A DNA stretch of 47,882 nt from the NCBI GenBank assembly GCA_947626845.1, contig CANQTW010000017.1, forward strand, positions 1 through 47,882. The letters run 5' to 3'. The stretch comes from an uncultured Oscillospiraceae bacterium. GTDB taxonomy: Bacteria; Bacillota; Clostridia; Oscillospirales; Oscillospiraceae. Of this stretch, positions 2,878-47,882 are shown in pieces. The position numbers were made by a program, and so were the translations under genes. How positions within the stretch are numbered: position 1 is the stretch's first letter; each line of letters starts with the position of its first letter. The notes beneath the pieces are model-generated. The model was not told the DNA's origin. It saw only the letters and a program-made list of their open reading frames with translations, and searched no databases.

Positions 2878-5250
2878 TTGAAATATAAGACGAAAAAAGC
2901 CATCAAAAAGACCGCCAAGGCGGGAGTGAACGCTGTTTTCAGCACCCTTGCGCTGGCGCTGAGGACTGTCGGCATCCTCCTGCTCATCTTTATCACCACC
3001 GGCGCCATCTTCGCCAGCATCTTTGCCATTTACATCAAGACCAACCTTGCCAGCGAGGATCTGGGCGTCTCCTTAGAGGAGTACCAGCTCAACGAGACCA
3101 GCATCATCTATTATTACGACAAAAATACGGACAGCTGGGTGGAGTCCGCCTCCATTTTCAGTGAGGACGGCTTCATGTACTGGGTGCCCTACGACGAGAT
3201 TCCCAAGGACATGGAGCACGCGCTGGTGGCCATCGAGGATCAGCGCTTCTACAAGCACCACGGCGTTGACTGGGCTCGCACCGTCAACGCCTTCCTCCAC
3301 ATGTTCCTGGGGAACAGCACCTTCGGCGGCTCCACCATCACCCAACAGCTCCGCAAGAACGTCACCGGTGAGAACGAGAACACCGTGCGCCGGAAGCTGA
3401 CGGAGATTTTCGCCGCGCTGCAGCTGGAGAAGGAATACGACAAGTGGGAGATCATCGAGTGGTACCTGAACGTGGTCAACTTCGGCCACGGGGAGTCCAG
3501 GGGCATCGGCGACGCCGCCCGGTACTATTTCGACAAGGAAGTCAAGGACCTGTCCCTGGCCGAGATTTGCTGCATCGTCGGCATTACCAACAACCCCTCC
3601 CTGTACAATCCCTATTACCACCCCCAGGCCAACAAGAAGCGCCAGGAGACTATCCTCTACGAGATGTACCGCCAGGGATACATCGATAAGGAGCAGTACG
3701 AGACGGCTAAGGCCGAGGAGCTCCACTTCGTCAACGGCGACACCGGCGGCAACACCGACGCCATCTACTCCTGGTTTGACGAGACAGTTCGGGAGGACGT
3801 GGCGGAATATCTGGCCGAGCAGAGGGGCGTGACCGTCAAGGCGGCCAAGAGCCTCTTAGCCACCGGCGGCTTTAAAATCTACTCCACCATGGACCCGGAC
3901 GTCCAGGCCAAGGTGGATCAGTATTACGGGAACAGGGAGTATATCGACAGCCTGAAGGCCAAAGGCGACGGGAGCCAGCAGTTCCAGTCCGCCATCGTCA
4001 TCACCGACCCCTACACCGGCAACATCGTGGCCCTGGCCGGCCAGGCGGGGGAGAAGACCGGCAACCTGTGGCTCAATATGGCCACCGAAACCCGCCGTCC
4101 CCCCGGCTCCTCCATCAAGCCCATCGCGGTGTACGCTCCGGCCATGGACTACGGCCTCATCACCCCCGACACCCTCATCGACGACGGCGCCACGGAGCTT
4201 GTGGGCAAGCCCGGCTGGATGCCCAAAAACGACGATAACAAGACCCACGGCATCGTCACCATCCGCCGGGGTCTGTCCAAGTCCTACAACCGCGTCTCCG
4301 CCCAGGTGCTGGATATGCTCACCCCCGCCTCCTCCTACGCCTTCCTCACGGAGAAACTGCATATGAGCCTGGACCCCAGGGATATGGACTACGCCCCCCT
4401 GTGTCTGGGCCAGCTGACCTACGGCGCCACGGTGCGGGAGATGGCCCAGGCTTTCGGCATCTTCCCCAACGAGGGCCAGTTCATCGAGACCCGCACCTTC
4501 ACCCAAATCTACGACTCCGAGTGGAATCTGATCTATGAGAACGTCCCGGAGACCGAGGGCGTCATCAGTCCCGTCACTGCCTATTGGATGACGGATATGC
4601 TCAAGGACGCTCCCACCATCGGCACCATCAGCATCAAGGTCACCACCAAGGATGGCCGTATGCCCTTCGGCGGCAAGACCGGCACCTCCGACAGCAAGAA
4701 GGACCGCTGGTTCGTGGGCTTCACCCCCTACTATGTGGCCGCCATCTGGACCGGTTATCCCTATCCCAAGCCCATCACCGTCAGCGGCAACCCGGCGGCC
4801 ACCATCTTCCAGGCCCTCATGTCATCCATCCACGAGGATTTGCCCATCAAGGACTTCTCCGTCCCCGCCAACACCTACCAGCCGCCCGTCCCCGGCGTGG
4901 AACCCATGAGCTACTACGCCCGCGGCATCGCCGTCAACGAGTACGGCGGCATCAACATCATCTACGAGCAGGAGGCGGGCACCAGCACCGTGGGCCGTGA
5001 GATCACCGTCACCGCTCCGGCCATCGAGGGCTACACCCTCACCGGGCCCTCCACCGTGACGCTGACCATCACCCAGGAGCCGGAGGACAACGTGGCCGAG
5101 TTCTATTACACCCCCGTGGCTCCTCCGCCGGACACCACGCCGGATACAGCGGATACCACGCCCCCGGAGACCACCCCGCCGGAGACCGAGCCTCCGGAGA
5201 CAACGCCCCCCGAAACGACCACCACCCCCGGCCCATCCCCGGAGGCCTGA
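2878..5250 (+). CDS. Class A penicillin-binding protein (PBP1A type)
   Basis: Bifunctional peptidoglycan polymerase, glycosyltransferase (GT51) plus transpeptidase, anchored in the membrane. The 790-residue protein has a basic N terminus, a membrane helix at about 31-53, and a GT51 domain with catalytic Glu120 in EDQRFYKHHG and GGSTITQQL. The transpeptidase domain has SSIK (411-414), SYN (469-471) and KTGT (600-603). A C-terminal extension from about residue 690 carries a beta-rich domain and a Pro/Thr/Glu tail made of PETTP/PETEP repeats, probably spanning the wall. The start is TTG 2878 with GTGAGGTG upstream; the LysxxLys-rich first residues fit a cytoplasmic tail. It is transcribed alone and ends at the family II repeat. 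Confidence 0.93.
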   Translation: MKYKTKKAIKKTAKAGVNAVFSTLALALRTVGILLLIFITTGAIFASIFAIYIKTNLASEDLGVSLEEYQLNETSIIYYYDKNTDSWVESASIFSEDGFMYWVPYDEIPKDMEHALVAIEDQRFYKHHGVDWARTVNAFLHMFLGNSTFGGSTITQQLRKNVTGENENTVRRKLTEIFAALQLEKEYDKWEIIEWYLNVVNFGHGESRGIGDAARYYFDKEVKDLSLAEICCIVGITNNPSLYNPYYHPQANKKRQETILYEMYRQGYIDKEQYETAKAEELHFVNGDTGGNTDAIYSWFDETVREDVAEYLAEQRGVTVKAAKSLLATGGFKIYSTMDPDVQAKVDQYYGNREYIDSLKAKGDGSQQFQSAIVITDPYTGNIVALAGQAGEKTGNLWLNMATETRRPPGSSIKPIAVYAPAMDYGLITPDTLIDDGATELVGKPGWMPKNDDNKTHGIVTIRRGLSKSYNRVSAQVLDMLTPASSYAFLTEKLHMSLDPRDMDYAPLCLGQLTYGATVREMAQAFGIFPNEGQFIETRTFTQIYDSEWNLIYENVPETEGVISPVTAYWMTDMLKDAPTIGTISIKVTTKDGRMPFGGKTGTSDSKKDRWFVGFTPYYVAAIWTGYPYPKPITVSGNPAATIFQALMSSIHEDLPIKDFSVPANTYQPPVPGVEPMSYYARGIAVNEYGGINIIYEQEAGTSTVGREITVTAPAIEGYTLTGPSTVTLTITQEPEDNVAEFYYTPVAPPPDTTPDTADTTPPETTPPETEPPETTPPETTTTPGPSPEA

Positions 5251-5268: not shown

Positions 5269-5507
5269 CACAGCGGCTGTCCTTGCGGCAGCCGCTGTTA
5301 GACTGTCGAAAAAGGGGAACGTGCGGGGGAATGGGACAAAATTGAAATTTTGGCCCATTCCCCCTGCTGTTTTGCCGCGCGCACGCCTATGGGCGCACAC
5401 TCGCAAAACAAGCTGGGATTTTCGCGACGTACATGCCGCCGCGAAAATCATCAAATAGTTTTTTGACAAACTGACAGCGGCTGCCGCAAGGACAGCCGCT
5501 GTTTTTT
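5269..5507. mobile_element. Family II structured repeat, copy 1, with terminal inverted repeats
   Basis: About 45-bp imperfect inverted repeats at 5269-5313 and 5459-5502 (both read TTTTT-GACA-CT-A then a CAGCGGCTG/CAGCCGCTG hairpin) bound a 145-bp core. The core (5313-5450) begins AGGGGAACGTGCGGG. It has three stems: GGGGGAATGGG/CCCATTCCCCC, GTTTTGC/GCAAAAC around GCCGCGCGC, and GATTTTCGCG/CGCGAAAATC around ACATG. The core recurs at 15070-15207 with different but still paired stems. The right terminal hairpin, with GTTTTTTG, can end PBP transcription. No protein is encoded; it looks like a non-autonomous mobile or structured RNA element. Confidence 0.7.
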
Positions 5508-20372: not shown

Positions 20373-20374
20373 AT

Positions 20375-20651
20375 AAGGTGACGGGAGTTGAACCCGCGCC
20401 GGTTTTCGCCGGCTGATTTGCGCCAGTACTTTGTCAAAAGCCTTGACAATACGCAAGTATTCTCTGTGGCTTTTTCCGCGTCCTGACGCAAATCAGCTCG
20501 CCGAAAACTGCGTACCACTCCACGCGGAGCAATTTTTGAGGGATTTTTGCCGCGAAGGAGGCAGCCTTGCTGACGCAAGGCAACGACGACAAGGTAAAAA
20601 GCACCGGAAAGGGCCCGCGTGGAGCGGCGCGGGTTCGACTCCCGTCACCTT
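20375..20651. repeat. Composite palindromic element with T-arm-like ends
   Basis: The ends (20375-20400 and 20626-20651) are 26-nt inverted repeats with one G-T pair. Each arm contains a tRNA T-arm-like hairpin: CGGGTTCGACTCCCG on the right and CGGGTTCAACTCCCG on the left when reversed, followed by CACCTT. Inside are a family III element (20401-20515) and an inverted, degenerate copy (about 20521-20612). No complete tRNA can be drawn from either arm, because the matching 5' half is missing. As RNA, the whole leader of the MATE gene would fold into one long closed structure. Confidence 0.6.
20401..20515 (+). repeat. Family III structured element, copy 1
   Basis: Stems nested from outside: GTTTTCG/CGAAAAC, CTGATTTGCG/CGCAAATCAG, AAAAGCC/GGCTTTT and AATAC/GTATT. 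The fixed internal loop is TTGAC on the 5' side and CTCTG on the 3' side. It aligns along its full length with 41129-41253, including TTGCGCCA, GTCA, CCTGAC and CTCGCCG. Confidence 0.65.
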
Positions 20652-20685
20652 AAGGGGAAAGACAGAAAAGGTTAGAGGCTTATAT

Positions 20686-22044
20686 ATGAAAGAGAACAAG
20701 ATGGGCGTCATGCCCGTGGGGAAGCTGCTGATCACCATGTCGCTTCCCATGATGGCGTCCATGCTGGTCCAGGCGCTGTACAACATTGTGGACAGCATGT
20801 TTGTGTCCCGCGTCAGCGAGAACGCGCTGACCGCCGTTTCGCTGGCGTTCCCCATTCAGACGTTGATCATCGCCTTTGCCAACGGTGTGGGCGTGGGCAT
20901 GAACGCGCTGTTGTCCCGCGCGTTGGGGGAGAAAAAGCCCGACGAGGCCAACAAGGTGGCCCGCCACGGCATTTTGCTGATGGCGGCGTGCTATATTATT
21001 TTCCTTGTGTTCGGCCTGTTTCTGACCCGTCCCTTCATGGTCACCCAGGTGACGGCGGAGACGGACCCGGAGATACTGGAATACGGCGTACAGTATCTGT
21101 CCATCGTCTGCGTCTTCTCCTTCGGCATCTTCGCCCAGATCGCCTCGGAGAGGCTCTTCCAGTCCACGGGCAGGACCGTGTGGTCCATGGTCACCCAGGC
21201 CACCGGCGCCGTCATCAACATCATCCTGGACCCCATCATGATCTTCGGCCTGGCGGGCTTTCCGCGCATGGGCGTGGCCGGCGCCGCCGTGGCCACGGTC
21301 ATCGGCCAGATCACGGCGGCTGTGCTGGGCGCGGTCCTCAACCGGTTCGTCAACCGTGAGGTCCGCATAGAGCCGCGGCTCCTTTTCCGGTGCGAACGGC
21401 GGGTGTTCCGCCAGATGCTCCTCATAGGCATCCCCACCACGGTGATGCAGGCCATAGGCTCTGTGATGAGCTACGTGATGAACCGCATCCTGATGGCCTT
21501 CTCCTCCACCGCGGCGGCGGTGTTCGGGGCGTATTTCAAAATTCAGTCCTTTGTCTGTATGCCCGTTTTCGGCCTGAACGCCGGCATGGTGCCCATCATC
21601 GCCTACAACTACGGCGCGCGGCAAAAGGAGCGCATCAAAAAGACCGTCCGGTACAGCGTGATCTTCGCCGAGGGCATCACCGCCGCGGGCTTTCTGGTCT
21701 TTCAGCTCTTCCCGGAGGCGCTGCTGGGCATGTTCGACGCCTCCCCCTATATGCTGGAGATCGGCGTACCGGCCCTGCGCATCATCTCCATCCACTTCCT
21801 CCTGTGTGGGGCCTGCATCGTCATAGGGAGCGTTTTTCAGGCCCTGGGCAACGGCGTCTACTCCGCCATCGTCTCCTTCCTGCGGCAGATCGTGGTGCTT
21901 CTGCCGGTGGCCTATATCTTCTCCAGGACCATTGGCCTCCAGGCGGTGTGGTGGTGCTTCCCCATTGCCGAGTCCGTGAGTCTGGCCGTGTCCCTGATCC
22001 TCCTGCGGCGCATCTATAAGAACGTGGTACAAACGCTTTCATGA
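20686..22044 (+). CDS. MATE family multidrug/sodium antiporter
   Basis: A 452-residue inner-membrane exporter of the MATE superfamily, expected to pump cationic drugs or metabolites out with Na+ or H+. It has about twelve hydrophobic segments in two pseudo-symmetric halves. Typical N-terminal MATE sequence is MPVGKLLITMSLPMMAS and ALYNIVDSMFVSRV, with GVGVGMNALLSRALGE after TM2 and AYNYGARQ in the second half. ATG 20686 follows TTAGAGGCT; the reading frame stays open further upstream through the repeat, but that sequence is not MATE-like. It overlaps the spacing of the next gene (DUF975) closely, suggesting co-transcription. Substrate unknown. Confidence 0.9.
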   Translation: MKENKMGVMPVGKLLITMSLPMMASMLVQALYNIVDSMFVSRVSENALTAVSLAFPIQTLIIAFANGVGVGMNALLSRALGEKKPDEANKVARHGILLMAACYIIFLVFGLFLTRPFMVTQVTAETDPEILEYGVQYLSIVCVFSFGIFAQIASERLFQSTGRTVWSMVTQATGAVINIILDPIMIFGLAGFPRMGVAGAAVATVIGQITAAVLGAVLNRFVNREVRIEPRLLFRCERRVFRQMLLIGIPTTVMQAIGSVMSYVMNRILMAFSSTAAAVFGAYFKIQSFVCMPVFGLNAGMVPIIAYNYGARQKERIKKTVRYSVIFAEGITAAGFLVFQLFPEALLGMFDASPYMLEIGVPALRIISIHFLLCGACIVIGSVFQALGNGVYSAIVSFLRQIVVLLPVAYIFSRTIGLQAVWWCFPIAESVSLAVSLILLRRIYKNVVQTLS

Positions 22045-22058
22045 AAGGGGTTTTTCTG

Positions 22059-22859
22059 ATGTTTTCCGATTCCCGTGAGCTGAAGCTCCGCGCCAGGGCG
22101 CGTCTCCGCCAGCGGATGCTCCCCATACTGCTGGTGGCCGCCGTCTATATCGTGGCGGGCTATCTCATCAACTATTTTGCCAGCGAGCTCTCCGGCGCCA
22201 ACGCCTACAGCAGGGCGGTAAACGAGCTGGTGAACTCCTACGCCGGCCAGGTGCGGGACGCGCTGAACGACCCGGAGCAGCTCCAGGCCGTCCTGAACCA
22301 AATCTACGCCTCCGTCCCCTCGGCCATGGAATTTTTCGCCGGACGGAGCCTGACGGGGCCGCTGCTGTCTGTGCTGGTGACGATGATCTCCCTGCCCCTG
22401 GCGGCGGGCTACACCCACCATATCCTCTTTGAGAGCCGCAAGAAGGACACCTCCGTGGGGTATCTGATGCACGGCTTCAAGGTGACCTTCAAGACCGTCG
22501 CCATCGGCCTGCTGACGGGCCTGGCGGTGGCCCTGGGCAGCGTCTTTCTGGTGATCCCCGGCGTCATCCTGAGCCTGATGTTCTCCATGTCCGTCATGGT
22601 GCTGATGGACGACCCGGACAAGGGGGCCATCGCCTGCATGAAGGAGTCGGCGCGGCTGATGAGCGGCCATAAATGGCGGCTTTTCAAGCTGTATTTCTCC
22701 TTCCTCCTGTGGACCATCGCCGCCGACCTGGTCACCTACCTTTTGCGCGCCCCCATCCTCAACATCTACCTGACGCCGTATATCAACCTGGCCGTGGCCA
22801 ACTTCTACAACGAGCTGGTCCACTACCAGCCTGATCCGGTGGAACCGATAGAGTTCTGA
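22059..22859 (+). CDS. DUF975 family membrane protein
   Basis: A 266-residue integral membrane protein. Hydrophobic segments lie at about 20-40, 95-120, 140-185 and 210-235, with ARARLRQRMLPILLVAAVY at the N terminus and the family-typical SRKKDTSVGYLMHGF and VIPGVILSLMFSMSVMVLMDDP. Proteins of this family are common in Clostridia and have no established role. I chose ATG 22059 because GAAAGGGG lies at good spacing; ATG 22041, overlapping the MATE stop, is the alternative. A family I repeat follows directly. Confidence 0.85.
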   Translation: MFSDSRELKLRARARLRQRMLPILLVAAVYIVAGYLINYFASELSGANAYSRAVNELVNSYAGQVRDALNDPEQLQAVLNQIYASVPSAMEFFAGRSLTGPLLSVLVTMISLPLAAGYTHHILFESRKKDTSVGYLMHGFKVTFKTVAIGLLTGLAVALGSVFLVIPGVILSLMFSMSVMVLMDDPDKGAIACMKESARLMSGHKWRLFKLYFSFLLWTIAADLVTYLLRAPILNIYLTPYINLAVANFYNELVHYQPDPVEPIEF

Positions 22860-22905: not shown

Positions 22906-23160
22906 GGCCTCCGTTCCCGTCGGGGATTTATAAGGATGTCCGCCCTTATAGGGCGGAGGGATTTACTTTTCTCCTTTTGGATTTCCAAAAGGAGAAAAGA
23001 AGCAAAAGAGGAAAAGAAACCAGGGGAGGGATTTCGATTTTCCCTCCCCTGGACCCTACCTTTTAAAAACGACCACACAGGGGCCGCGGCCCCTATGTGG
23101 AGAACCCCAGGGGAACGCCCGCGGGGGAGAAAAGCCGTAGGGGCGGGTTCAAAAACCCGC
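22906..23160 (+). repeat. Family I multi-hairpin element, copy 1
   Basis: Ordered parts: GGGATTTATAAGG; stem CCGCCCTTATAGGGCGG; stem TTCTCCTTTTGG/CCAAAAGGAGAA; anchor GCAAAAGAGG; stem CCAGGGGAGGG/CCCTCCCCTGG with loop ATTTCGATTTT; anchor AAAAACGACCA; stem CCACACAGGGGCC/GGCCCCTATGTGG; then GAGAACCCCAGGGGAACGCCCGCGGGG. It begins about 45 nt after the DUF975 stop and meets copy 3, which is in the opposite orientation. No coding capacity. Confidence 0.8.
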
Positions 23161-23496
23161 CCGACGATTTTTTAAATAGATTTTCGTTTATTCGGAGGGA
23201 AGGGATTGGAAGGGGAACCGTCAGGGTTCCCCTTCTGATTCAATCATTCGCCGCCGTGCGGCGGGGGCCCATCCCTACGGGATGTTTCCCCGCGGGCGAT
23301 CCCTGAGGGGAATCCAGATGGGGGGCTCGCAAGCCCCCCTCTGGTCGTTTCAAGGGGGTGTCCAGAGGGGGGAAATCGAAATCCCCCCTCTGGTTGTTTT
23401 TCTCTGCTTTGTTACTTTCATCTCTTTTGTCAACACAAAAGAGATGAAAGTAAATCCCCCTCCGCCCTGTAAGGGCGGAACCCTCCCCTTTTTGCG
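23161..23496 (-). repeat. Family I multi-hairpin element, copy 3 (long form)
   Basis: On the minus strand, just after metG: CCGCCCTTACAGGGCGG, TTCATCTCTTTTGT/ACAAAAGAGATGAA, anchor GTAACAAAGCAGAG, CCAGAGGGGGG/CCCCCCTCTGG and a second CCAGAGGGGGGC/GCCCCCCATCTGG. These are followed by a 3' extension with ATCCCGTAGGGAT, CCGCCGCACGGCGG, AAGGGGAACC/GGTTCCCCTT and GGCGGGTT/AACCCGCC hairpins. The same extension occurs in copy 4. Confidence 0.8.
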
Positions 23497-23505
23497 TATC
23501 TGTTT

Positions 23506-25452
23506 TCAGCAGAGCTTATAGCCCGCCGGGACGGCGTCGTCCAGCATGAGCAGGTGCAGCTTCTCCTCGCCGTTTTCCTCCTTGACGGCGGAGAGGAGCA
23601 TCCCGTTGGACTCCAGGCCCATCATCTTGCGGGCGGGGAGGTTCAAAATAGCGACAACGGTTTTTCCCACCAATTCTTCGGGTTTATAGAATTTGGCGAT
23701 GCCGGAGAGGATCTGCCGGGGCGTGCCGGAGCCGTCGTCCAGGGTGAAGCGCAAAAGCCGCTCGGATTTTTTCACGTTTTCACAGCTGAGCACCTTGCAC
23801 ACCCGCATGTCGCACTTGGCGAACTCGTCGATGGTCACGTCGGGGAGCACCGGATCGAAGGCGGGCGCGGGATTTTTGGCGGCGTAAAACGCCTCGATCT
23901 CCGCGGCCTTTTTGGCGGGATCGATGCGGGCGAAGAGAATCTCCGCGCCGCCGATCTTATGGCCCTCCGGGATGGCGCCGAAGGAGGAGAGGCTGTCCCA
24001 ATCGGACACAGGCAGGGCGAGCTGGGCGAAAATCTTCTCCGCCGTCTCCGGCAGGAAGGGCCGGAGGAGCGCGGCGCTGATGCGCACCGTCTCCAGAAGG
24101 TTATAGAGCACGGTGGCCAGGCGGGGCATCGTCTCCTGGCTCCTGGCCAGCACCCAGGGCTGTGTCTCGTCCACGTACTTGTTGGCCCGTCTGAGGAGGG
24201 TGAAAATCTCGTCGATGGCGTCAGCCACGTGGAGGGTGTTCATCTTCTCCTGGCACCGCTGGGGTGTCCGGAGCGCCAGGTCGATCAGCTCCGCGTCCAC
24301 AGGCTCCATGGTGTGATTGGAGCCCACCACGCCGTCAAAATACTTGTTCTGCATGGACACCGTGCGGTTCACCAGGTTCCCCAGGATGTTGGCCAGGTCC
24401 GAGTTGATGCGCTCGATGATCAGATCGTGGCTCATGGTGCCGTCGGAGGCGAAGGGCATCTCGTGGAGCACGTAGTACCGCACCGCGTCCACGCCGTAGA
24501 GGTCCACCAGATCGTCGGCGTACAGCACGTTGCCCTTGGATTTGGACATCTTGCCGTCGCTCATCAAGAGCCAGGGGTGGCCGAACACCTGCTTGGGCAA
24601 AGGCTCACCGATGGACATGAGGAACGCCGGCCAGTAGAGGGTGTGGAACCGGAGGATGTCCTTGCCGATGAGGTGTACGTCCGCCGGCCAGTATTTTTTG
24701 TAGTTCTCGCCGCTCTCGGAGCCGTTGACCTCCAGGCCGGGGAAGGTGGCGTAGTTGAAAAGGGCGTCCAGCCACACGTATACCACGTGCCTGGGGTCGG
24801 AGCGCACCGGGATGCCCCAGGAAAAGCTTGTGCGGGAGATGCAGAGGTCTTGAAGTCCCGGCTTTAAGAAGTTGTTGATCATCTCGTTCTTACGGGCTTC
24901 GGGCTGGATGAAGTCGGGGTGCTCCTCGATGTATTTCCGGAGGGGCTCGGTGTATTTGGAAAGCCGGAAGAAATACGCCTCCTCCTCGGCCCACTTCACC
25001 TCCCGCCCGCAGTCGGGGCACTTGTGGTCCACAAGCTGGCTCTCGGTCCAGAAGGACTCGCAGGGGGTACAGTACCAGCCCTCGTACTTGCTCTTGTAGA
25101 TGTCGCCGGAGGCCAGCATCTTCTCAAAGATGTCCTGAATCTTCCGCTCATGGTCCGGGTCCGTGGTGCGCACGAACCGGTCATAGCTGGTGTTCATCAG
25201 GTCCCAGATGCGCCGTATCTCCCCGGCGGTGCCGTCCACAAACTGCTGGGGGGTGACGCCGGCGGCCTCGGCCTTCTCCTGAATCTTCTGGCCGTGCTCG
25301 TCGGTGCCCGTCTGGAAGTACACGTCATAGCCCTCCATTCGCTTGAACCGGCAGATGGCGTCGGCCAGCACGATCTCATAGGTGTTGCCGATGTGGGGCT
25401 TGCCGGATGCGTAGGCAATGGCGGTGGAAAGGTAGAATTTTCCTTTACTCAT
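23506..25452 (-). CDS. metG: Methionyl-tRNA synthetase
   Basis: Charges tRNA-Met. The 648-residue protein has HIGN (20-23) and KMSKS (301-305) class I signatures. The CP domain carries a zinc knuckle, CTPCESFW and HKCPDCGRE. The helical anticodon domain follows, and a C-terminal tRNA-binding (EMAP/OB) domain occupies about residues 545-648 (DMRVCKVLSCENV, LVGKTVVAILNLPARKMMG). This two-domain-plus-tail layout is the usual Firmicutes type. ATG 25452 has AGGAGGTACACC upstream. It ends 10 nt before family I copy 3. Confidence 0.96.
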   Translation of the reverse strand: MSKGKFYLSTAIAYASGKPHIGNTYEIVLADAICRFKRMEGYDVYFQTGTDEHGQKIQEKAEAAGVTPQQFVDGTAGEIRRIWDLMNTSYDRFVRTTDPDHERKIQDIFEKMLASGDIYKSKYEGWYCTPCESFWTESQLVDHKCPDCGREVKWAEEEAYFFRLSKYTEPLRKYIEEHPDFIQPEARKNEMINNFLKPGLQDLCISRTSFSWGIPVRSDPRHVVYVWLDALFNYATFPGLEVNGSESGENYKKYWPADVHLIGKDILRFHTLYWPAFLMSIGEPLPKQVFGHPWLLMSDGKMSKSKGNVLYADDLVDLYGVDAVRYYVLHEMPFASDGTMSHDLIIERINSDLANILGNLVNRTVSMQNKYFDGVVGSNHTMEPVDAELIDLALRTPQRCQEKMNTLHVADAIDEIFTLLRRANKYVDETQPWVLARSQETMPRLATVLYNLLETVRISAALLRPFLPETAEKIFAQLALPVSDWDSLSSFGAIPEGHKIGGAEILFARIDPAKKAAEIEAFYAAKNPAPAFDPVLPDVTIDEFAKCDMRVCKVLSCENVKKSERLLRFTLDDGSGTPRQILSGIAKFYKPEELVGKTVVAILNLPARKMMGLESNGMLLSAVKEENGEEKLHLLMLDDAVPAGYKLC

Positions 25453-25546
25453 GGTGTACCTCCTGAAATGGTTAAGGTTTTAGTATTGTAACAGCTTTGA
25501 CAGGGAAATGGCAAGCAACGCGCGGTTTAAAGAGGATTTGATCCGG

Positions 25547-25909
25547 TTACGCCATCCGCTCCGCCAGCTTGGCGCCGCCCAAGATGTGGAAGTGGAGATG
25601 GGGGACGGACTGGCAGGCGTCGGGGCCGCAGTTGGAGATGACCCGATAGCCGCCGGTGAGGCCCTCCTGGGCGGCGATTTTGGCGATGACGGTGAAGATG
25701 TGGCCCACCAGGGCGGCGTTTTTCCCGTTGATCTCCGCCACGGATTGGATGTGGGCCTTGGGCACCACCAAAATGTGGGTGGGCGCCTGGGGGTTGATGT
25801 CACGGAAGGCATAGCAGAGGTTGTCCTCATAGACCTTTGTGGAGGGAATATCGCCTTTGATGATCTTGCAGAAAAGGCAGGATTCGTCGTAATTCAGAAC
25901 GTCGGACAT
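25547..25909 (-). CDS. HIT family (HINT-like) nucleotide hydrolase
   Basis: A 120-residue histidine-triad protein, usually hydrolysing AMP-lysine or adenosine phosphoramidates. CLFCKIIKGDIPS at the N terminus includes the CxxC zinc pair seen in many bacterial HINTs. Then come FRDINPQAPTHILVVPK and the triad HLHFHIL (104-110) with the nucleophilic middle His. ATG 25909 is preceded by GAAAGGAGTATGATCCC. It lies between alaS and metG on the same strand but is separated from alaS by repeats. Confidence 0.93.
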   Translation of the reverse strand: MSDVLNYDESCLFCKIIKGDIPSTKVYEDNLCYAFRDINPQAPTHILVVPKAHIQSVAEINGKNAALVGHIFTVIAKIAAQEGLTGGYRVISNCGPDACQSVPHLHFHILGGAKLAERMA

Positions 25910-25939
25910 GGGATCATACTCCTTTCATGTGTTCCGCCT

Positions 25940-26155
25940 TGCCCCGGCGGGGGTTTATAAGGTTTCCGCCTTTACGGGCGGAGGAATTTGCTTTTCTCTC
26001 TTTGGGTCGCCAAAGAGAGAAAAGCAACAAAAGAGAGAAAGCGACCAGAGGGGGGCTTTCGCGTTTCCCCCCTCTGGACTCCCCCTTAAAACGACCACAC
26101 AGGGGCCTGCGGGCCCCTATGTGGAGAACCCCGGGGGAGCGCCCGCACGAAAATA
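25940..26155 (+). repeat. Family I multi-hairpin element, copy 2
   Basis: Same order as copy 1: GGTTTATAAGG; CCGCCTTTACGGGCGG; TTCTCTCTTTGG/CCAAAGAGAGAA; anchor GCAACAAAAGAGAG; CCAGAGGGGGG/CCCCCCTCTGG; anchor AAAACGACCA; CCACACAGGGGCC/GGCCCCTATGTGG; GAGAACCCCGGGGGAGCGCCCGC. It is the only copy not placed 3' of a gene in the sense direction: the HIT gene is divergent from it. Confidence 0.8.
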
Positions 26156-26384
26156 GAAGCAACGCTAACGTTCCCCACACGATTACAGCCGCACCAGCGC
26201 GGGTGGAATAGGAACGACAGCTCCGTTAACTGAGCTGTGAGCGATTAGCGGGTTAGACGCAGAGACAATGCGATGACGTCACGCGCGGATATGAGTGGGA
26301 CCATGGGTATCGACCAATGCCGCGGGAGCCGGACCGCCGTAACGGAGCAGCTGCCCGGTCTATTGCCAGGCCCAAAAATAAATC
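26156..26384. other. Unassigned intergenic segment between two family I copies
   Basis: About 230 bp with no plausible gene on either strand. It holds an ACAGCTC/GAGCTGT hairpin (26218-26240) and a CAGCTGCCCGG-type GC-rich stretch. Base composition is less extreme than the flanking repeats. It replaces the usual 3' extension of both family I copies, and could be inserted foreign DNA or a decayed element. Confidence 0.4.
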
Positions 26385-26496
26385 TTTTCTCTTTTTGCAA
26401 GCTTTTTCTCTTTTCCATTTTGGGAAAAGAGAAAAAGCTGATTTTCCCCGCCCTTTTAAGGGCGGACACCCCCGCCGGGGGTAAGGGCGGAATCCT
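26385..26496 (-). repeat. Family I element, copy 5 (5' part only)
   Basis: Minus strand after alaS: CCGCCCTTAAAAGGGCGG, then CTTTTTCTCTTTTCC/GGAAAAGAGAAAAAG, then anchor GCAAAAAGAGAAAAG, where similarity ends. An extra CCCCCGGCGGGGG hairpin precedes the first stem. Confidence 0.7.
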
Positions 26497-29162
26497 TATA
26501 CCCCCAGCCTCTCGGCAACAAAGTTATCCACGCTCGCCAGAGCGTCATCCAGCATCAGCACGTCCCTGCCGCCGCCCATGGCGGAGTCCGGCCTGCCGCC
26601 GCCCTTGCCGCCGCAGACGGCGCAGACGGCGCGGATGATGTCGCCGGCCTTCACGCCCTTGGCCACCGCGTCCTTGCCGCAGACGGCCTGGAAGGTCAGC
26701 TTCTCCCCGTCCACGCTGGCGATCACCGCCACCACGGAGCCGTCCCGGTCACGGAGCATATCGCCCAGCTTGCGCAGCTCGTCGGGGCTGGCGCCGGGAC
26801 GGCTGGCGGTGACCACATGGAGGCCGCCCACCGTCTTGGCGGCGGCCAGGAACTGGCCGATCTCGCCGGAGCGCAGCTTGTCCTGAAGGGACTCCAGATC
26901 GTGGTGGAGGCGCCTGTTCTCCTCCTGGTTGGCCTTCAGCTTGTCCACCAGCTCAAAGGGGGAGGATTTGAGGACGTTGGCCGCCTCCAAAAGGGTGCGG
27001 TTCACGCGCTCGTTCTCTTTGAAATACGCAAGGCCCGTGATGGCCTCGATGCGCCGGACGCCGGAGGCCACGGAGAATTCGCTGGTGATGCGGAAGGGGC
27101 CGACTTTCGCGGTGTTGTCCTGATGGGTGCCGCCGCAGAATTCCACGGAGAAATTGTCCCCCATGGTGACTACCCGGACGATATCCCCGTATTTTTCGCC
27201 GAAGAGGGCGATAGCGCCCTTTTTCCTGGCCTCCTCGATGGGCAGCTCCTCGGTGACGATGGGATCGCCGTCCAGGACCTTCCTGTTGACGATATCCGCC
27301 ACCCGCAGCAGCTCCTCGCCGGTGAGGGCCGCGAAGTGGGTGAAGTCAAATCTCAGCCTGTCCGGCTCCACAAGGGAGCCGGCCTGATGGACGTGGTCGC
27401 CCAGAACGGAGCGCAGGGCCGCGTCCAGCAGGTGCGTGGCGGAGTGGGCCCGCATGATGGCCTCCCGGCGCTCACAGTCGATGGCGGCGCAGACGGTGTC
27501 GCCCAGCTTCAGGATGCCGGAGGTGAGCTTGCCGTAGTGCATGTACTTGCCGCCCTTGTTTTTCTGGACGTCGGTGACGGTAAAGGAGGTCTCTCCCGCG
27601 GTGATGAGGCCCTGGTCGGCCACCTGGCCGCCCATCTCGGCGTAGAAGGGGGACTTGTCCAGCACCACGATGCCCTCCACGCCGGGCATCAGCTCCTCGG
27701 CCTGCTCGTTTTCCACCACCAGGGCCACCACCTTCGCGTCGGAGACGCGCTTTTCGGTGTAGCCCACAAAGCTCGTTTCAGGCACGTCCTTGCCGAACTC
27801 CACGCCGGCCCAGCCCAGGTCGCCCAGAGCCTCCCTGGCCTTGCGGGCGCGGGCGCGCTGCTCCTCCATCTGCGCCCGGAAGCCCTTGTCGTCCACGGTC
27901 ATGCCCTGTTCCTCCGCCATCTCGCGGGTCAGGTCGATGGGGAAGCCGTAGGTGTCGTAGAGCTTGAAGGCGTCGGCACCGGCAAAGACCGTCTCGCCCT
28001 TCGCCTTGTGCTCCGCCAGCATGTCGTTGAAGATGCGCAGTCCGGCGTCGATGGTCTTGGCGAAATTCTCCTCCTCCACCCGGATGACGCGGGTGATATA
28101 CGCCTGCCGCTCCCGAAGCTCCGGGTAGTGGCCCTCGTTCTCGTGAACCACCGTGTCCACCACCTCATGGAGGAAGGGATCGGTGACGCCCAGCAAGCGC
28201 CCGTGGCGGGCGGCCCGCCGCAAGAGCCGGCGCAGTACGTAGCCCCGCCCCTCGTTGGAGGGGAGGACGCCGTCGCAGATCATAAAGACGCCGGAGCGGA
28301 TGTGGTCGGTGATGACCCGAAGGGACACGTCCTTGTCGTGACTTTCGCCGTAGTGGGCGCCGGTGAGCTCGCTTACCTTGTTGGTAATGTTCATCACCGT
28401 GTCCACGTCAAAGAGGCTGGCCACGTTCTGGCAGACGCAGGCCAGGCGCTCCAGGCCCATGCCGGTGTCGATGTTTTTCTGCTTCAGCTCGGTGTAGTGG
28501 CCCTCGCCGTCGTTGTCAAACTGGGAGAACACCACGTTCCAGACCTCGATGTACCTGTCGCAGTCGCATCCCACGTGGCAGTCGGGCTTGCCGCAGCCCC
28601 ACTCCTCGCCTCGGTCATAGTAGATCTCGGAGCAGGGGCCGCAGGGGCCGGAGCCGTGCTCCCAGAAGTTGTCCTCCCGTCCGAAGCGGACGATGTGATC
28701 CTCCGGTACGCCCACCACGTCCCGCCAGATGGCGTAGGCCTCGTCGTCGGCGGGGGTCATATCGTCCCCGGCAAAGACGGAGGGGTAGAGCCGGGCGGGG
28801 TCCAGACCCACCCACTCAGGGCTGGTCAGGAACTCCCAGGCCCAGGGAATGGCCTCTTTTTTGAAGTAATCCCCAAAGGAGAAGTTGCCCAGCATCTCAA
28901 AATAGGTGCCGTGGCGGGCCGTGTGGCCGATGTTCTCGATGTCTCCGGTGCGGATGCACTTCTGGCAGGTGGTGACCCTGTGACGGGGCGGCTCCTGCTC
29001 GCCGGTGAAGAAGGGCTTCATGGGCGCCATGCCGGAGTTGATGAGCAGCAGGCTCTGGTCGTTTTGGGGGATCAGGGAGAAGGAGGGCAGGCGCAGATGC
29101 CCCTTGGTCTCGAAAAATTTGAGAAACATCTCCCGAAGCTCGTTAAGGCCAAATGGTTTCAT
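26496..29162 (-). CDS. alaS: Alanyl-tRNA synthetase
   Basis: Charges tRNA-Ala and edits misacylated Ser/Gly. The 888-residue protein is full length. The class II catalytic core spans about 1-450 (FFETKGHLRLPSFSLIP, MAPMKPFFTG, CQKCIRTGDIENIG). The editing domain carries AHSATHLLDAAL and CGGTHQDNTAKVGPF zinc/active-site motifs. A C-Ala oligomerisation domain ends with GKGGGRPDSAMGGG. ATG 29162 has AAGGAGATACAAAAAC upstream. It lies 83 nt after mltG on the same strand, so the two may be co-transcribed. Family I copy 5 starts at its stop codon. Confidence 0.96.
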   Translation of the reverse strand: MKPFGLNELREMFLKFFETKGHLRLPSFSLIPQNDQSLLLINSGMAPMKPFFTGEQEPPRHRVTTCQKCIRTGDIENIGHTARHGTYFEMLGNFSFGDYFKKEAIPWAWEFLTSPEWVGLDPARLYPSVFAGDDMTPADDEAYAIWRDVVGVPEDHIVRFGREDNFWEHGSGPCGPCSEIYYDRGEEWGCGKPDCHVGCDCDRYIEVWNVVFSQFDNDGEGHYTELKQKNIDTGMGLERLACVCQNVASLFDVDTVMNITNKVSELTGAHYGESHDKDVSLRVITDHIRSGVFMICDGVLPSNEGRGYVLRRLLRRAARHGRLLGVTDPFLHEVVDTVVHENEGHYPELRERQAYITRVIRVEEENFAKTIDAGLRIFNDMLAEHKAKGETVFAGADAFKLYDTYGFPIDLTREMAEEQGMTVDDKGFRAQMEEQRARARKAREALGDLGWAGVEFGKDVPETSFVGYTEKRVSDAKVVALVVENEQAEELMPGVEGIVVLDKSPFYAEMGGQVADQGLITAGETSFTVTDVQKNKGGKYMHYGKLTSGILKLGDTVCAAIDCERREAIMRAHSATHLLDAALRSVLGDHVHQAGSLVEPDRLRFDFTHFAALTGEELLRVADIVNRKVLDGDPIVTEELPIEEARKKGAIALFGEKYGDIVRVVTMGDNFSVEFCGGTHQDNTAKVGPFRITSEFSVASGVRRIEAITGLAYFKENERVNRTLLEAANVLKSSPFELVDKLKANQEENRRLHHDLESLQDKLRSGEIGQFLAAAKTVGGLHVVTASRPGASPDELRKLGDMLRDRDGSVVAVIASVDGEKLTFQAVCGKDAVAKGVKAGDIIRAVCAVCGGKGGGRPDSAMGGGRDVLMLDDALASVDNFVAERLGV

Positions 29163-31399: not shown

Positions 31400-31660
31400 A
31401 GCCGCTTTGCTTCGGGGCGAGGCTGATGCGAACGGCATCAGCCTCACCCCTCAGGCGCGGGCTCGGCTCCTCCTTTCCCCACGCGGTCTATGACCGCGCG
31501 GGGGCCCCGAAAAAGAGCAGGGCGCTGACTTCGCTCCTCCTTTCCCCATCGGGCGACAGCCCGATGGGGTTTTAAAAGGGGGACCCCGAAAAAAGGCAGG
31601 GGCGCGGGCTCGGCTCCTCCTTTCCCCATCGGGCGACAGCCCGATGGGGGCTTAAGGGGG
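31400..31660 (-). repeat. Family IV tandem hairpin array
   Basis: Three units of about 70-80 nt. Each has a stem (CCCCATCGGGC/GCCCGATGGGG at 31624-31650 and 31544-31569; CCCC-CGCGGTC/GACCGCG-GGGG at 31477-31504), then GGGGAAAGGAGGAGC, then a CTTTTTTCGGGG-like stretch, on the minus strand. A GAGGCTGATGC/GCATCAGCCTC hairpin closes the array next to the Cys-rich gene. It lies directly 3' of the 5-FCL gene. A related block sits at 47605-47690. Confidence 0.7.
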
Positions 31661-47112: not shown

Positions 47113-47355
47113 ATGAAAAACCGCGCGCTCCAGTCCGCCGTCCTGTTTCTCCTGGCGGCAGTCGTCATCTACTTTGCCCTGAGCGTCTTGGTGCCGGGCT
47201 GGCATCTGAAGCTCTCGGCCTCCCCCATGACGGTGCTGTTTGAAAATCTCAAGCATATGGTCTTTTTAAAGCTCCTCATCACCCTCCCTCTGTCCACCCT
47301 TATCACCGCCCTGCCGATCCTGGCGGAGAAGGTGGAGAAGGGCGGGAAAGAGTAA
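47113..47355 (+). CDS. Small two-helix membrane protein
   Basis: I do not recognise this 80-residue protein. It has a hydrophobic helix at about 8-28 (SAVLFLLAAVVIYFALSVL), a short loop with GWHLKLSASP, and a second helix at about 49-69 (FLKLLITLPLSTLITALPI). The C terminus is charged (EKVEKGGKE). ATG 47113 follows AAAGGAGTATCG, a good site. It lies 43 nt after the GT2 gene on the same strand, so it may be a partner or stabilising subunit. Family I copy 4 starts about 10 nt after the stop. Confidence 0.75.
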   Translation: MKNRALQSAVLFLLAAVVIYFALSVLVPGWHLKLSASPMTVLFENLKHMVFLKLLITLPLSTLITALPILAEKVEKGGKE

Positions 47356-47365
47356 GTGGGGCAAA

Positions 47366-47830
47366 AAGGTTGTCCGCCTTCCAGGCGGACGGGGGATTAC
47401 TTTCTCCTCTTTTGTCTCGTCAAAAGAGGAGAAAGTAACAAAGAGGAGAAAAACGAGTCAAGGGGGATTCCGATTTTCCCCCTTGACAATCCCCTTTTAA
47501 AAACGGCCAGAGGGGGGCTTGCGAGCCCCCCATCTGGATTCCCCCCAGGGAGCGCCCGCGGGAAGGCATCCCGTAGGGATGGGGCCCCCGCCGAACGATA
47601 GTTCGGTGGGGAGAGGAAGAGCCAAGCCCGCGCCTGAGCCCTGGCGTTTACGCCGGGGCGAGGTTAAGCGGCTTGTGCGATGACGAGTAGGGGCCAGACC
47701 CGCTCGGCCCGCCGCACGGCGGCGGAAGATTGAATCAGAAGGGGAACCCTGACGGTTCCCCTTCCAATCCCTTCCCTCCGAATATCTGAAAATCTGTTTA
47801 AGAAACCGTAGGGGCGGGTTCAATGTCAAG
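47366..47830 (+). repeat. Family I multi-hairpin element, copy 4 (long form, interrupted)
   Basis: GTCCGCCTTCCAGGCGGAC; TTCTCCTCTTTTG/CAAAAGAGGAGAA; anchor GTAACAAAGAGGAG; GTCAAGGGGG/CCCCCTTGAC; AAAAACGGCCAGAGG stem with GCTTGCGAGC; ATCCCGTAGGGAT; then a family IV block (47605-47690); then CCGCCGCACGGCGG and AAGGGGAACC/GGTTCCCCTT. It is cut at GGCGGGTTCA, where copies 1 and 3 continue AAAACCCGCC. Confidence 0.75.
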
Positions 47831-47882
47831 AGCAACATAGGTAACACATCGGGAAGGGACATGGGTTACAGTCTGCGGATGG
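47831..47882. mobile_element. Probable end of an insertion sequence, truncated by the window
   Basis: Sequence after 47830 (TGTCAAGAGCAACATAGGTAACACATCGGG and onward to TGGGTTACAG) departs from the family I consensus in the middle of a hairpin arm. AACATAGGTAACACATCGGG and GACATGGGTTACA-type strings are, from memory, typical of IS ends in Firmicutes. No transposase is inside the window. Confidence 0.4.

Follow-up and report, generated by a model that had tools for sequence, protein, structure and literature searches.

A mosaic intergenic repeat of Oscillospirales with linkers and antiloops that change with its stems and a predicted triplex-pseudoknot fold

The repeat described here, family I, lies between genes in a stretch of 47,882 nucleotides (nt) from an uncultured Oscillospiraceae bacterium (GenBank assembly GCA_947626845.1, contig CANQTW010000017.1, positions 1 to 47,882 of the forward strand), which is called the window below. 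The repeat itself is real and not a product of chance. Family I is probably a DNA-level mosaic repeat similar to the bacterial interspersed mosaic elements (BIMEs), and not an RNA gene, with single strands that are predicted to fold into intrastrand-triplex pseudoknots. A DNA-level mosaic repeat is favoured because the copies show no transcription-strand bias, occur in facing pairs and swap modules. Among known repeats, the BoxC/PIT (potential intrastrand triplex) element of Escherichia coli is the closest in kind.

Each unit of the repeat generally runs arm, loop, arm, linker, antiloop. Many copies begin with a CCCCGGCGGGG hairpin, followed by stem 1, sometimes in the form of several CCGCCC..GGGCGG hairpins, and by stem 2, in which a pyrimidine arm precedes a purine arm and the linker and antiloop come next. 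In the 3′ part, stem 3 has both a linker and an antiloop, stem 4 comes next with a linker, and variable modules follow last (Table 1). The original prediction had listed five copies sharing stems, stem order and unpaired anchors, and all of these are present as claimed. It had also recognized that the two sides of the stems change together, and had missed that linker, loop and antiloop change with the stem, through loop–antiloop pairing and mirror linkers. Iterated nhmmer, with a profile grown from copy 1, placed a family I match in each of the five places in the claimed orientation. Two of the intervals were drawn too wide: in 23161-23496 the outer part (23161-23266), and in 47366-47830 the part from 47585 onward, consist of other repeat modules. 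The supposed partial copy at 26385-26496 matches family I at 26384-26480 on the minus strand with its 5′ half only, and it is not a worn copy but a second type. In this type II, stems 1 and 2 are as in family I and lead into a conserved core of another kind, about 200 nt long; 11 distinct sequences were aligned. The core (..CATATCCGCGCG..CTAACCCGCTTAGCCGCT..; 26154-26383 in the window) lies 3′ of type II stem 2 units, had no Rfam match and was seen at loci L004, L006, L018, L019, L023, L026, L145, L159, L160, and L163.

A lack of further copies or of covariation would have spoken against the original prediction, and neither was observed. In the draft genome to which the window belongs (2,575,467 bases, 68 contigs, 90.92% complete), blastn returned 76 further matches with E values from 1.1e-130 to 5.6e-4, overlapping pieces counted. 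Script parsing yielded 47 rows with stem 2, of which 33 also had stems 3 and 4 in recognisable form. As L006_1898 repeats its neighbour and L009_1218 is doubtful, these counts are more safely put at 45 and 32. A copy that shares 99% identity with copy 1 lies near an end of contig C67. Among relatives, copy 1 had blastn matches in 27 of 80, namely in 26 of the genus and, weakly, in one outside it. A covariance-model search found matches in 27 of the 34 genus genomes, with up to 83 per genome; G014, G021, and G030 had no covariance-model match and weak blastn matches. Under filters stricter than those of the genus search, the model matched 39 of 295 genomes and 27 of 148 genera of the order, and in a phylum-wide sample at the stricter cut-off of E 1e-5 it matched 1 of 299 genomes, that of the window. 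The 80 named loci included a facing pair in Ruminococcaceae RUG10626 (L107) and a single copy in Clostridiales bin70 (L045). The best match of metG of the window among named records came from a rabbit-gut Oscillospiraceae genome (92% identity).

The linker of stem 2 is the purine arm read backwards, so that arm AAAAGAGAAGAAAG goes with AAAGAAGAGAAAA and arm CCAAAAGAGAGGAAAG with AAAGGAGAGAAAA. Covariation was judged by allele-swap and register-slide controls. For 29 distinct arms, the mirror score was 329 compared with 288.8 ± 5.0 in allele swaps (maximum 307 in 2000 swaps), and the direct-repeat score was 289 compared with 283.5 ± 4.4. For 80 collapsed units from the whole order, the mirror score was 764 compared with 641.4 ± 8.2 (maximum 670 in 600 swaps). 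Asymmetric arms of distant genomes, e.g., those of L180, L209, and L226, keep the mirror. With the same 80 units, the linker gave no signal as an alternative Watson–Crick partner of the purine arm (265 compared with 269.5 ± 6.4) and, as a direct copy of the arm, a signal weaker than the mirror though above nil; both candidates were rejected. In 61 units, A lies on T-A in 457 of 467 cases and G on C-G in 193 of 199, counts that are inflated because the register was the best mirror match, with 8 of 12 required. Stem 2 has the order Y-loop-R-loop-R′ (Y, pyrimidine; R, purine), with R′ fitting R as a purine third strand. Passages of PMC4666352 describe a purine third strand of A·A-T and G·G-C triads, antiparallel to the purine arm, as the class II intrastrand triplex.

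Loop–antiloop pairing was assessed on 61 distinct 48-nt strings, after strings had been dropped for orientation (54), loop size (31), short stems (39) and weak mirror match (9). With the register taken from the mirror match alone, 201 of 366 positions were Watson–Crick pairs, compared with 108.9 ± 8.6 after swapping (maximum 141 in 5000). Slid registers paired at 0.20–0.31 compared with 0.55 in the mirror-set register, and all three central pairs were formed in 37 of the 61. These strings, which hold 27 distinct loop tetramers, are not independent. With one string per distinct hexaloop (31 loops), 104 of 186 positions paired, compared with 49.5 ± 6.7 after swapping (maximum 74 in 5000), and a parallel-pairing control gave 59 compared with 51.7 ± 5.2 (maximum 72). 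The claim of loop–antiloop pairing rests on this one-per-loop test because the parallel control is high in looser tests; its excess disappeared only with one unit per loop. By eye, loop/antiloop pairs of unrelated sequence recur, such as GTTG/CAAC, CTCGT/ACGAG, GTCGC/GCGAC, CGAAAT/ATTTCG, TGCGTG/CACGCA, and AAGGAT/ATCCTT. A pairing of the stem 1 loop with the upstream TATAAGG was dropped, as by eye some copies pair and others do not.

For stem 3, hairpins with CG or CA in the loop were collected (93 after collapsing), and the 45 distinct ones that had a stem 3 loop and antiloop were kept; a few of these, L029 and L168 among them, are probably other hairpins. The linker was aligned with the base pairs of the stem, starting at its foot. 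A single register stood out, with a mutual information of 0.410 bits compared with 0.023–0.221 in ten others and 0.091 ± 0.022 in swaps (maximum 0.197 in 2000). In that register linker and arm are identical at 222 of 330 positions. Where the 3′ arm has C, the linker also has C in 193 of 231 cases; where the arm has G, the linker has A in 9 of 13; and where the arm has T, the linker has A in 50 and T in 26 of 84. Loop centre and antiloop fit as TCG/CGA (32), CCG/CGG (9) and GCG/CGC (1), with three misfits (TCG/CGC twice, TCA/CGA once). In the full set of 93, which is mixed with unrelated hairpins, the mirror score of 524 (maximum of swaps 510) was barely above the direct score of 518 (maximum of swaps 518). 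Stem 4 showed the same register as stem 3, with 0.170 compared with at most 0.110 in other registers and 0.029 ± 0.010 in swaps (maximum 0.085 in 1000), in a contaminated set of 70 hairpins of which about half look unrelated by eye. On the complementary strand, stem 3 shows G·G-C with T or A opposite A-T, a combination that passages of PMC4666352 list for the purine motif.

Mirror linkers and antiloops might also be by-products of low complexity and shared ancestry in an ordinary palindromic repeat, resembling BIMEs or miniature inverted-repeat transposable elements, whose perfect stems are kept by template switching and gene conversion. One genome holds few alleles, which reassort as units; near-palindromic polypurine makes mirror and direct matches look alike, the direct match exceeding the swaps in the wider set; and the units of the loop–antiloop test are not independent. 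This explanation is nevertheless quite unlikely, as the mirror signal is register-sharp and allele-specific, extends to asymmetric arms and to other families of the order, and is accompanied by antiloops that track loops across 31 distinct loops. In addition, template switching gives inverted or direct copies, not mirror copies.

Stem alleles reassort between copies, and quartets with all four combinations were found for stems 2 and 3 (3), stems 3 and 4 (4), and stems 2 and 4 (8). The site 3′ of gene 47113-47355 was compared in 14 genomes. Full elements with different stem 2 alleles were present in G000 and G011, G001 had stem 1 and resumed at the stem 3 linker, G018 had stem 1 only, and G012 had an ordinary terminator; the remaining nine showed neither the small gene nor, in the stretch inspected, an element. 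In the gap between alaS and the HIT-family gene, the facing pairs of G000 and G001 are built of different units but have almost the same outer junction, and G009 lacks stem 3 and keeps stems 2 and 4. At the site 3′ of metG, the element occurred in G000 alone among the 27 relatives less G014, G021, and G033. These orthologous sites and the reassortment indicate that copies persist at their sites and change by loss or replacement of whole units. The differing alleles at orthologous sites and the reassorting stem alleles support the original suggestion that structure is under selection, combined with conversion of entire units.

The genomic position was analyzed in 63 intergenic regions that remained after 14 duplicate hits and 11 regions without called flanking genes had been dropped; genes were called with a custom codon-usage script. 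The flanking genes were tandem in 38 regions, convergent in 23 and divergent in 2. Single copies between tandem genes showed no strand bias (15 sense, 14 antisense), and each of the 21 multi-copy regions contained a facing pair, arranged plus-minus in 20 and plus-plus-minus in one. In 9 regions the facing pair stands between tandem genes, so that half of each such pair is antisense. The 5′ end lies a median of 16 nt past the co-oriented gene, within 60 nt in 47 of 60 cases, and the 3′ side is distant from the next gene (median 478 nt).

As a structured RNA, family I would be a 3′-end or antisense transcript of tandem H-type pseudoknots with linkers in the stem groove, stabilising mRNA ends or stopping transcription. 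The order arm, loop, arm, linker, antiloop is exactly that of an H-type pseudoknot, the 5′ end closely follows the stop codon of a co-oriented gene where one is present, and G000 and G011 carry the element where G012 has its terminator. Moreover, a loose terminator scan was positive, mostly through stem 1 plus a pyrimidine tract, for 15 of 23 element-followed genes compared with 13 of 49 controls. This explanation, which the original prediction had implied, is conceivable but unlikely. Antisense and sense copies are about equally frequent between tandem genes, the facing pairs place half of their copies antisense, and loop pairing has no excess of G-U over A-C (13 and 27); the corresponding stem count (14 and 19) says nothing on this point, as each palindrome was read on both strands. 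Furthermore, stem 2 follows a purine third-strand code, and purine-motif triplexes are said in passages of PMC4666352 not to form in RNA. No Rfam match reached the gathering score at five loci searched with E up to 1, in agreement with the original statement that no named RNA family has this layout; in the window, the Rfam scan reported tRNA and 6S only, and nothing at family I.

It is very improbable that family I is the end of a transposable element moved by a REP (repetitive extragenic palindrome)-associated tyrosine transposase (RAYT), or by a different Y1 transposase, encoded in its own genome. The genome does carry a RAYT-like gene (L114:1225-1848, 207 amino acids, PF01797 match), and the element often has a GTAG-headed hairpin joined to its 3′ end. 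However, PF01797 occurs in 18 of the 34 genus genomes without tracking the element: Y1_Tnp is absent from G004, G005, G026, G007, and G029, which have 76, 30, 17, 9, and 10 element matches, respectively, and G030 and G021 have Y1_Tnp matches and no model match, although absences are soft in draft genomes. Family I units themselves have no GTAG head. The coding sequence of the RAYT-like gene itself includes, in frame, two REP-like hairpins (GTACGGGCCGCCGCCC.. and its inverse). By eye, no gene was called between the facing pairs of L005, L022, and L027, and no autonomous version with a gene between its ends was seen there. A phage or plasmid origin was rejected, as blastn with copy 1 found no match in phage and plasmid collections.

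We propose that each of the tandem units, when its strand is single, would fold into an intrastrand triplex pseudoknot, in which a long hairpin is formed, the linker returns along the stem as a third strand, and the antiloop pairs with the loop and locks the fold. Stem 2 would form the class II motif with G·G-C and A·A-T triads on the shown strand. In stems 3 and 4, the third strand would follow a pyrimidine-type order on the shown strand, corresponding on the complementary strand to a purine motif (G·G-C, T·A-T or A·A-T). DNA, with stem 2 folding on one strand and stems 3 and 4 on the other, is favoured because of the purine-motif codes in passages of PMC4666352. Beyond the observed sequence correlations, positions, unit reassortment and orthologous sites, we infer that triple helices form, that they do so in DNA made single-stranded while it is replicated, repaired or transposed, and that the repeat is mobile, the fold being the substrate of a putative enzyme that spreads or converts units. 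Facing pairs line intergenic regions from both ends, and copies stay at orthologous sites, where they lose and swap whole units and acquire other small repeats.

Several observations weigh against this model. The direct-repeat score of the order-wide stem 2 set, 698 compared with 649.8 ± 8.4, was above all swaps (maximum 672), so that this set may contain a direct-repeat component; two relatives of stem 2 (L132 and L133) have a direct-repeat linker instead of a mirror. For stem 3, direct-repeat identity reached up to 0.55 compared with 0.67 for the mirror, and the shown strand fits no canonical code because A faces A-T, which is no canonical parallel triad. The parallel-pairing control gave 154 on all 61 strings (maximum of shuffles 145) and exceeded every shuffle in looser sets (252, maximum 251; 257, maximum 256). 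The loops of L016_1287 and L144_1956 do not fit their antiloops, and L144_1956 resembles an inverted hairpin. No transposase tracks the element, given the five genomes with 9–76 matches and no Y1_Tnp, and no target-site duplication was found, the relatives being too distant for intergenic alignment. Finally, 5′ ends near the ends of co-oriented genes (47 of 60) are also expected of a transcript-end role.

Potential intrastrand triplexes in bacteria have been known since the BoxC/PIT work. BOX elements of pneumococcus are modular intergenic repeats, as family I is, and are not known to have a mirror linker or antiloop. Like BoxC/PIT, family I is intergenic, multi-copy and strand-unbiased. According to passages of PMC4666352, the BoxC/PIT/TM elements of E. 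coli and others also occur sometimes as inverted pairs, have the class II order on one strand, and vary in their loci between relatives. In contrast to the single 9-nt G-rich motif of BoxC/PIT in that source, stem 2 has about 12–13 A/G triads in many alleles, and family I differs further in its loop–antiloop pairing, up to three tandem units and spread within one order. The TM(ECO) consensus CCCTCNCCC..GGGNGAGGG..GGGNGAGGG had 0 matches in the window and its genome. REPs and BIMEs with RAYTs, the subject of PMC2817692 and PMC6006769, are likewise palindromic intergenic mosaics of alternating orientation. Unlike them, family I is longer, has linkers and antiloops, and does not track Y1 transposases; by eye, stems 1–4 have no GTAG or like tetranucleotide head, whereas the true GTAG-headed hairpins that adjoin family I in the genome have one. 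H-type pseudoknots with triple helices, such as the SAM-V riboswitch (PMC6061858), share the linker along the stem and the loop pairing, but they are short RNAs beside controlled genes, whereas the family I linker mirrors about 12 stem bases and the element has no strand bias. H-DNA shares mirror-symmetric polypurine stretches; in the account in parts of PMC4666352 it arises from a duplex mirror repeat, whereas in family I the hairpin itself supplies the duplex on one strand. No earlier description of family I was found in the open-access literature (PubMed Central texts).

Table 1. Positions of family I features and adjoining repeats in the window.
Feature	Positions	Strand	Remarks
Family I copy 1	22906..23160 (match 22913-23153)	+	3′ of stop codon of gene 22041-22859
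Stem 1 (H1), CCGCCC..GGGCGG	22940..22956	+	
Stem 2 (H2)	22966..22999	+	pyrimidine arm 22966-22980, loop 22981-22984, purine arm 22985-22999
H2 linker	23004..23015	+	mirrors purine arm; candidate third strand, class II order Y-R-R′
H2 antiloop, GAAACC	23016..23021	+	complements loop region; final two bases also start H3
Stem 3 (H3)	23020..23052	+	arm 23020-23031, loop TTTCGATTT 23032-23040, arm 23041-23052
H3 linker	23053..23064	+	mirrors H3 3′ arm; single register found for all H3 alleles
H3 antiloop, AAAAACGA	23065..23072	+	complements TCG.TTT of H3 loop
Stem 4 (H4)	23073..23100	+	linker AGAACCCC next, 23101-23108; weaker evidence
GTAG-headed REP-like hairpin	23137..23163	+	3′ end of copy 1; separate repeat family; GTAG head presumably a REP mark
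Family I copy 2	23267..23484	-	faces copy 1; begins 22 nt past metG stop codon
Family I copy 3	25943..26153	+	left end of composite; 5′ end adjoins HIT-family gene start
Internal core of composite	26154..26383	.	conserved among type II copies
Type II right end	26384..26498	-	stems 1-2, mirror linker, antiloop; TATAAGG contains alaS stop codon
Family I copy 4	47358..47584	+	3 nt past stop codon of gene 47113-47355
Appended modules	47585..47830	+	module B, then REP-like stretch common to 23153-23265

Module B, of about 125 nt (GGGGCCCCCGCCGAACG..GACGACGAG; 47589-47690 in the window), is a separate small repeat that lies 3′ of family I in many copies. It is a unit of its own because it is also inserted in the stem 3 loop, in L028, L016, L002, and L027. 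A tandem repeat of 67–80 nt at 31433-31660 is an inverse-orientation relative of module B. Other repeats were also seen in the window. An inverted repeat (20374-20413 and 20613-20652; also in L027 near 3200-3500) resembles a tRNA T arm with acceptor end (GCGGGTTCGACTCCCGTCACCTTA) and recurs in the genome without a full tRNA, the only called tRNA being tRNA-Ser at 138-226. At the edges of two contigs, 47810-47882 and L001, a sequence common to both interrupts a REP-like hairpin in the manner of an insertion sequence. At 5270-5502 there is a long intergenic palindromic inverted repeat of a different family, with 44-nt arms (91%).

Passages of PMC4666352 present intrastrand triplex formation in the cell as at most minor or transient and without an agreed role. 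A third strand that follows the changes of its stem across many alleles and in several genera would be evidence that selection acts on the triple helix as such, and the family would supply natural variants for testing the triplex. More tentatively, family I may represent a class of mobile or convertible DNA elements of one gut-bacterial order whose hereditary signal is a single-strand triple-helix pseudoknot, with stem, third strand and loop lock changing together. If so, it would provide natural covariation evidence for selection on intrastrand triplexes, and its enzyme would be one that recognises folded triplex DNA. Such a fold would give the repeat mosaics of Oscillospirales a physical basis and would point to an enzyme that handles them.

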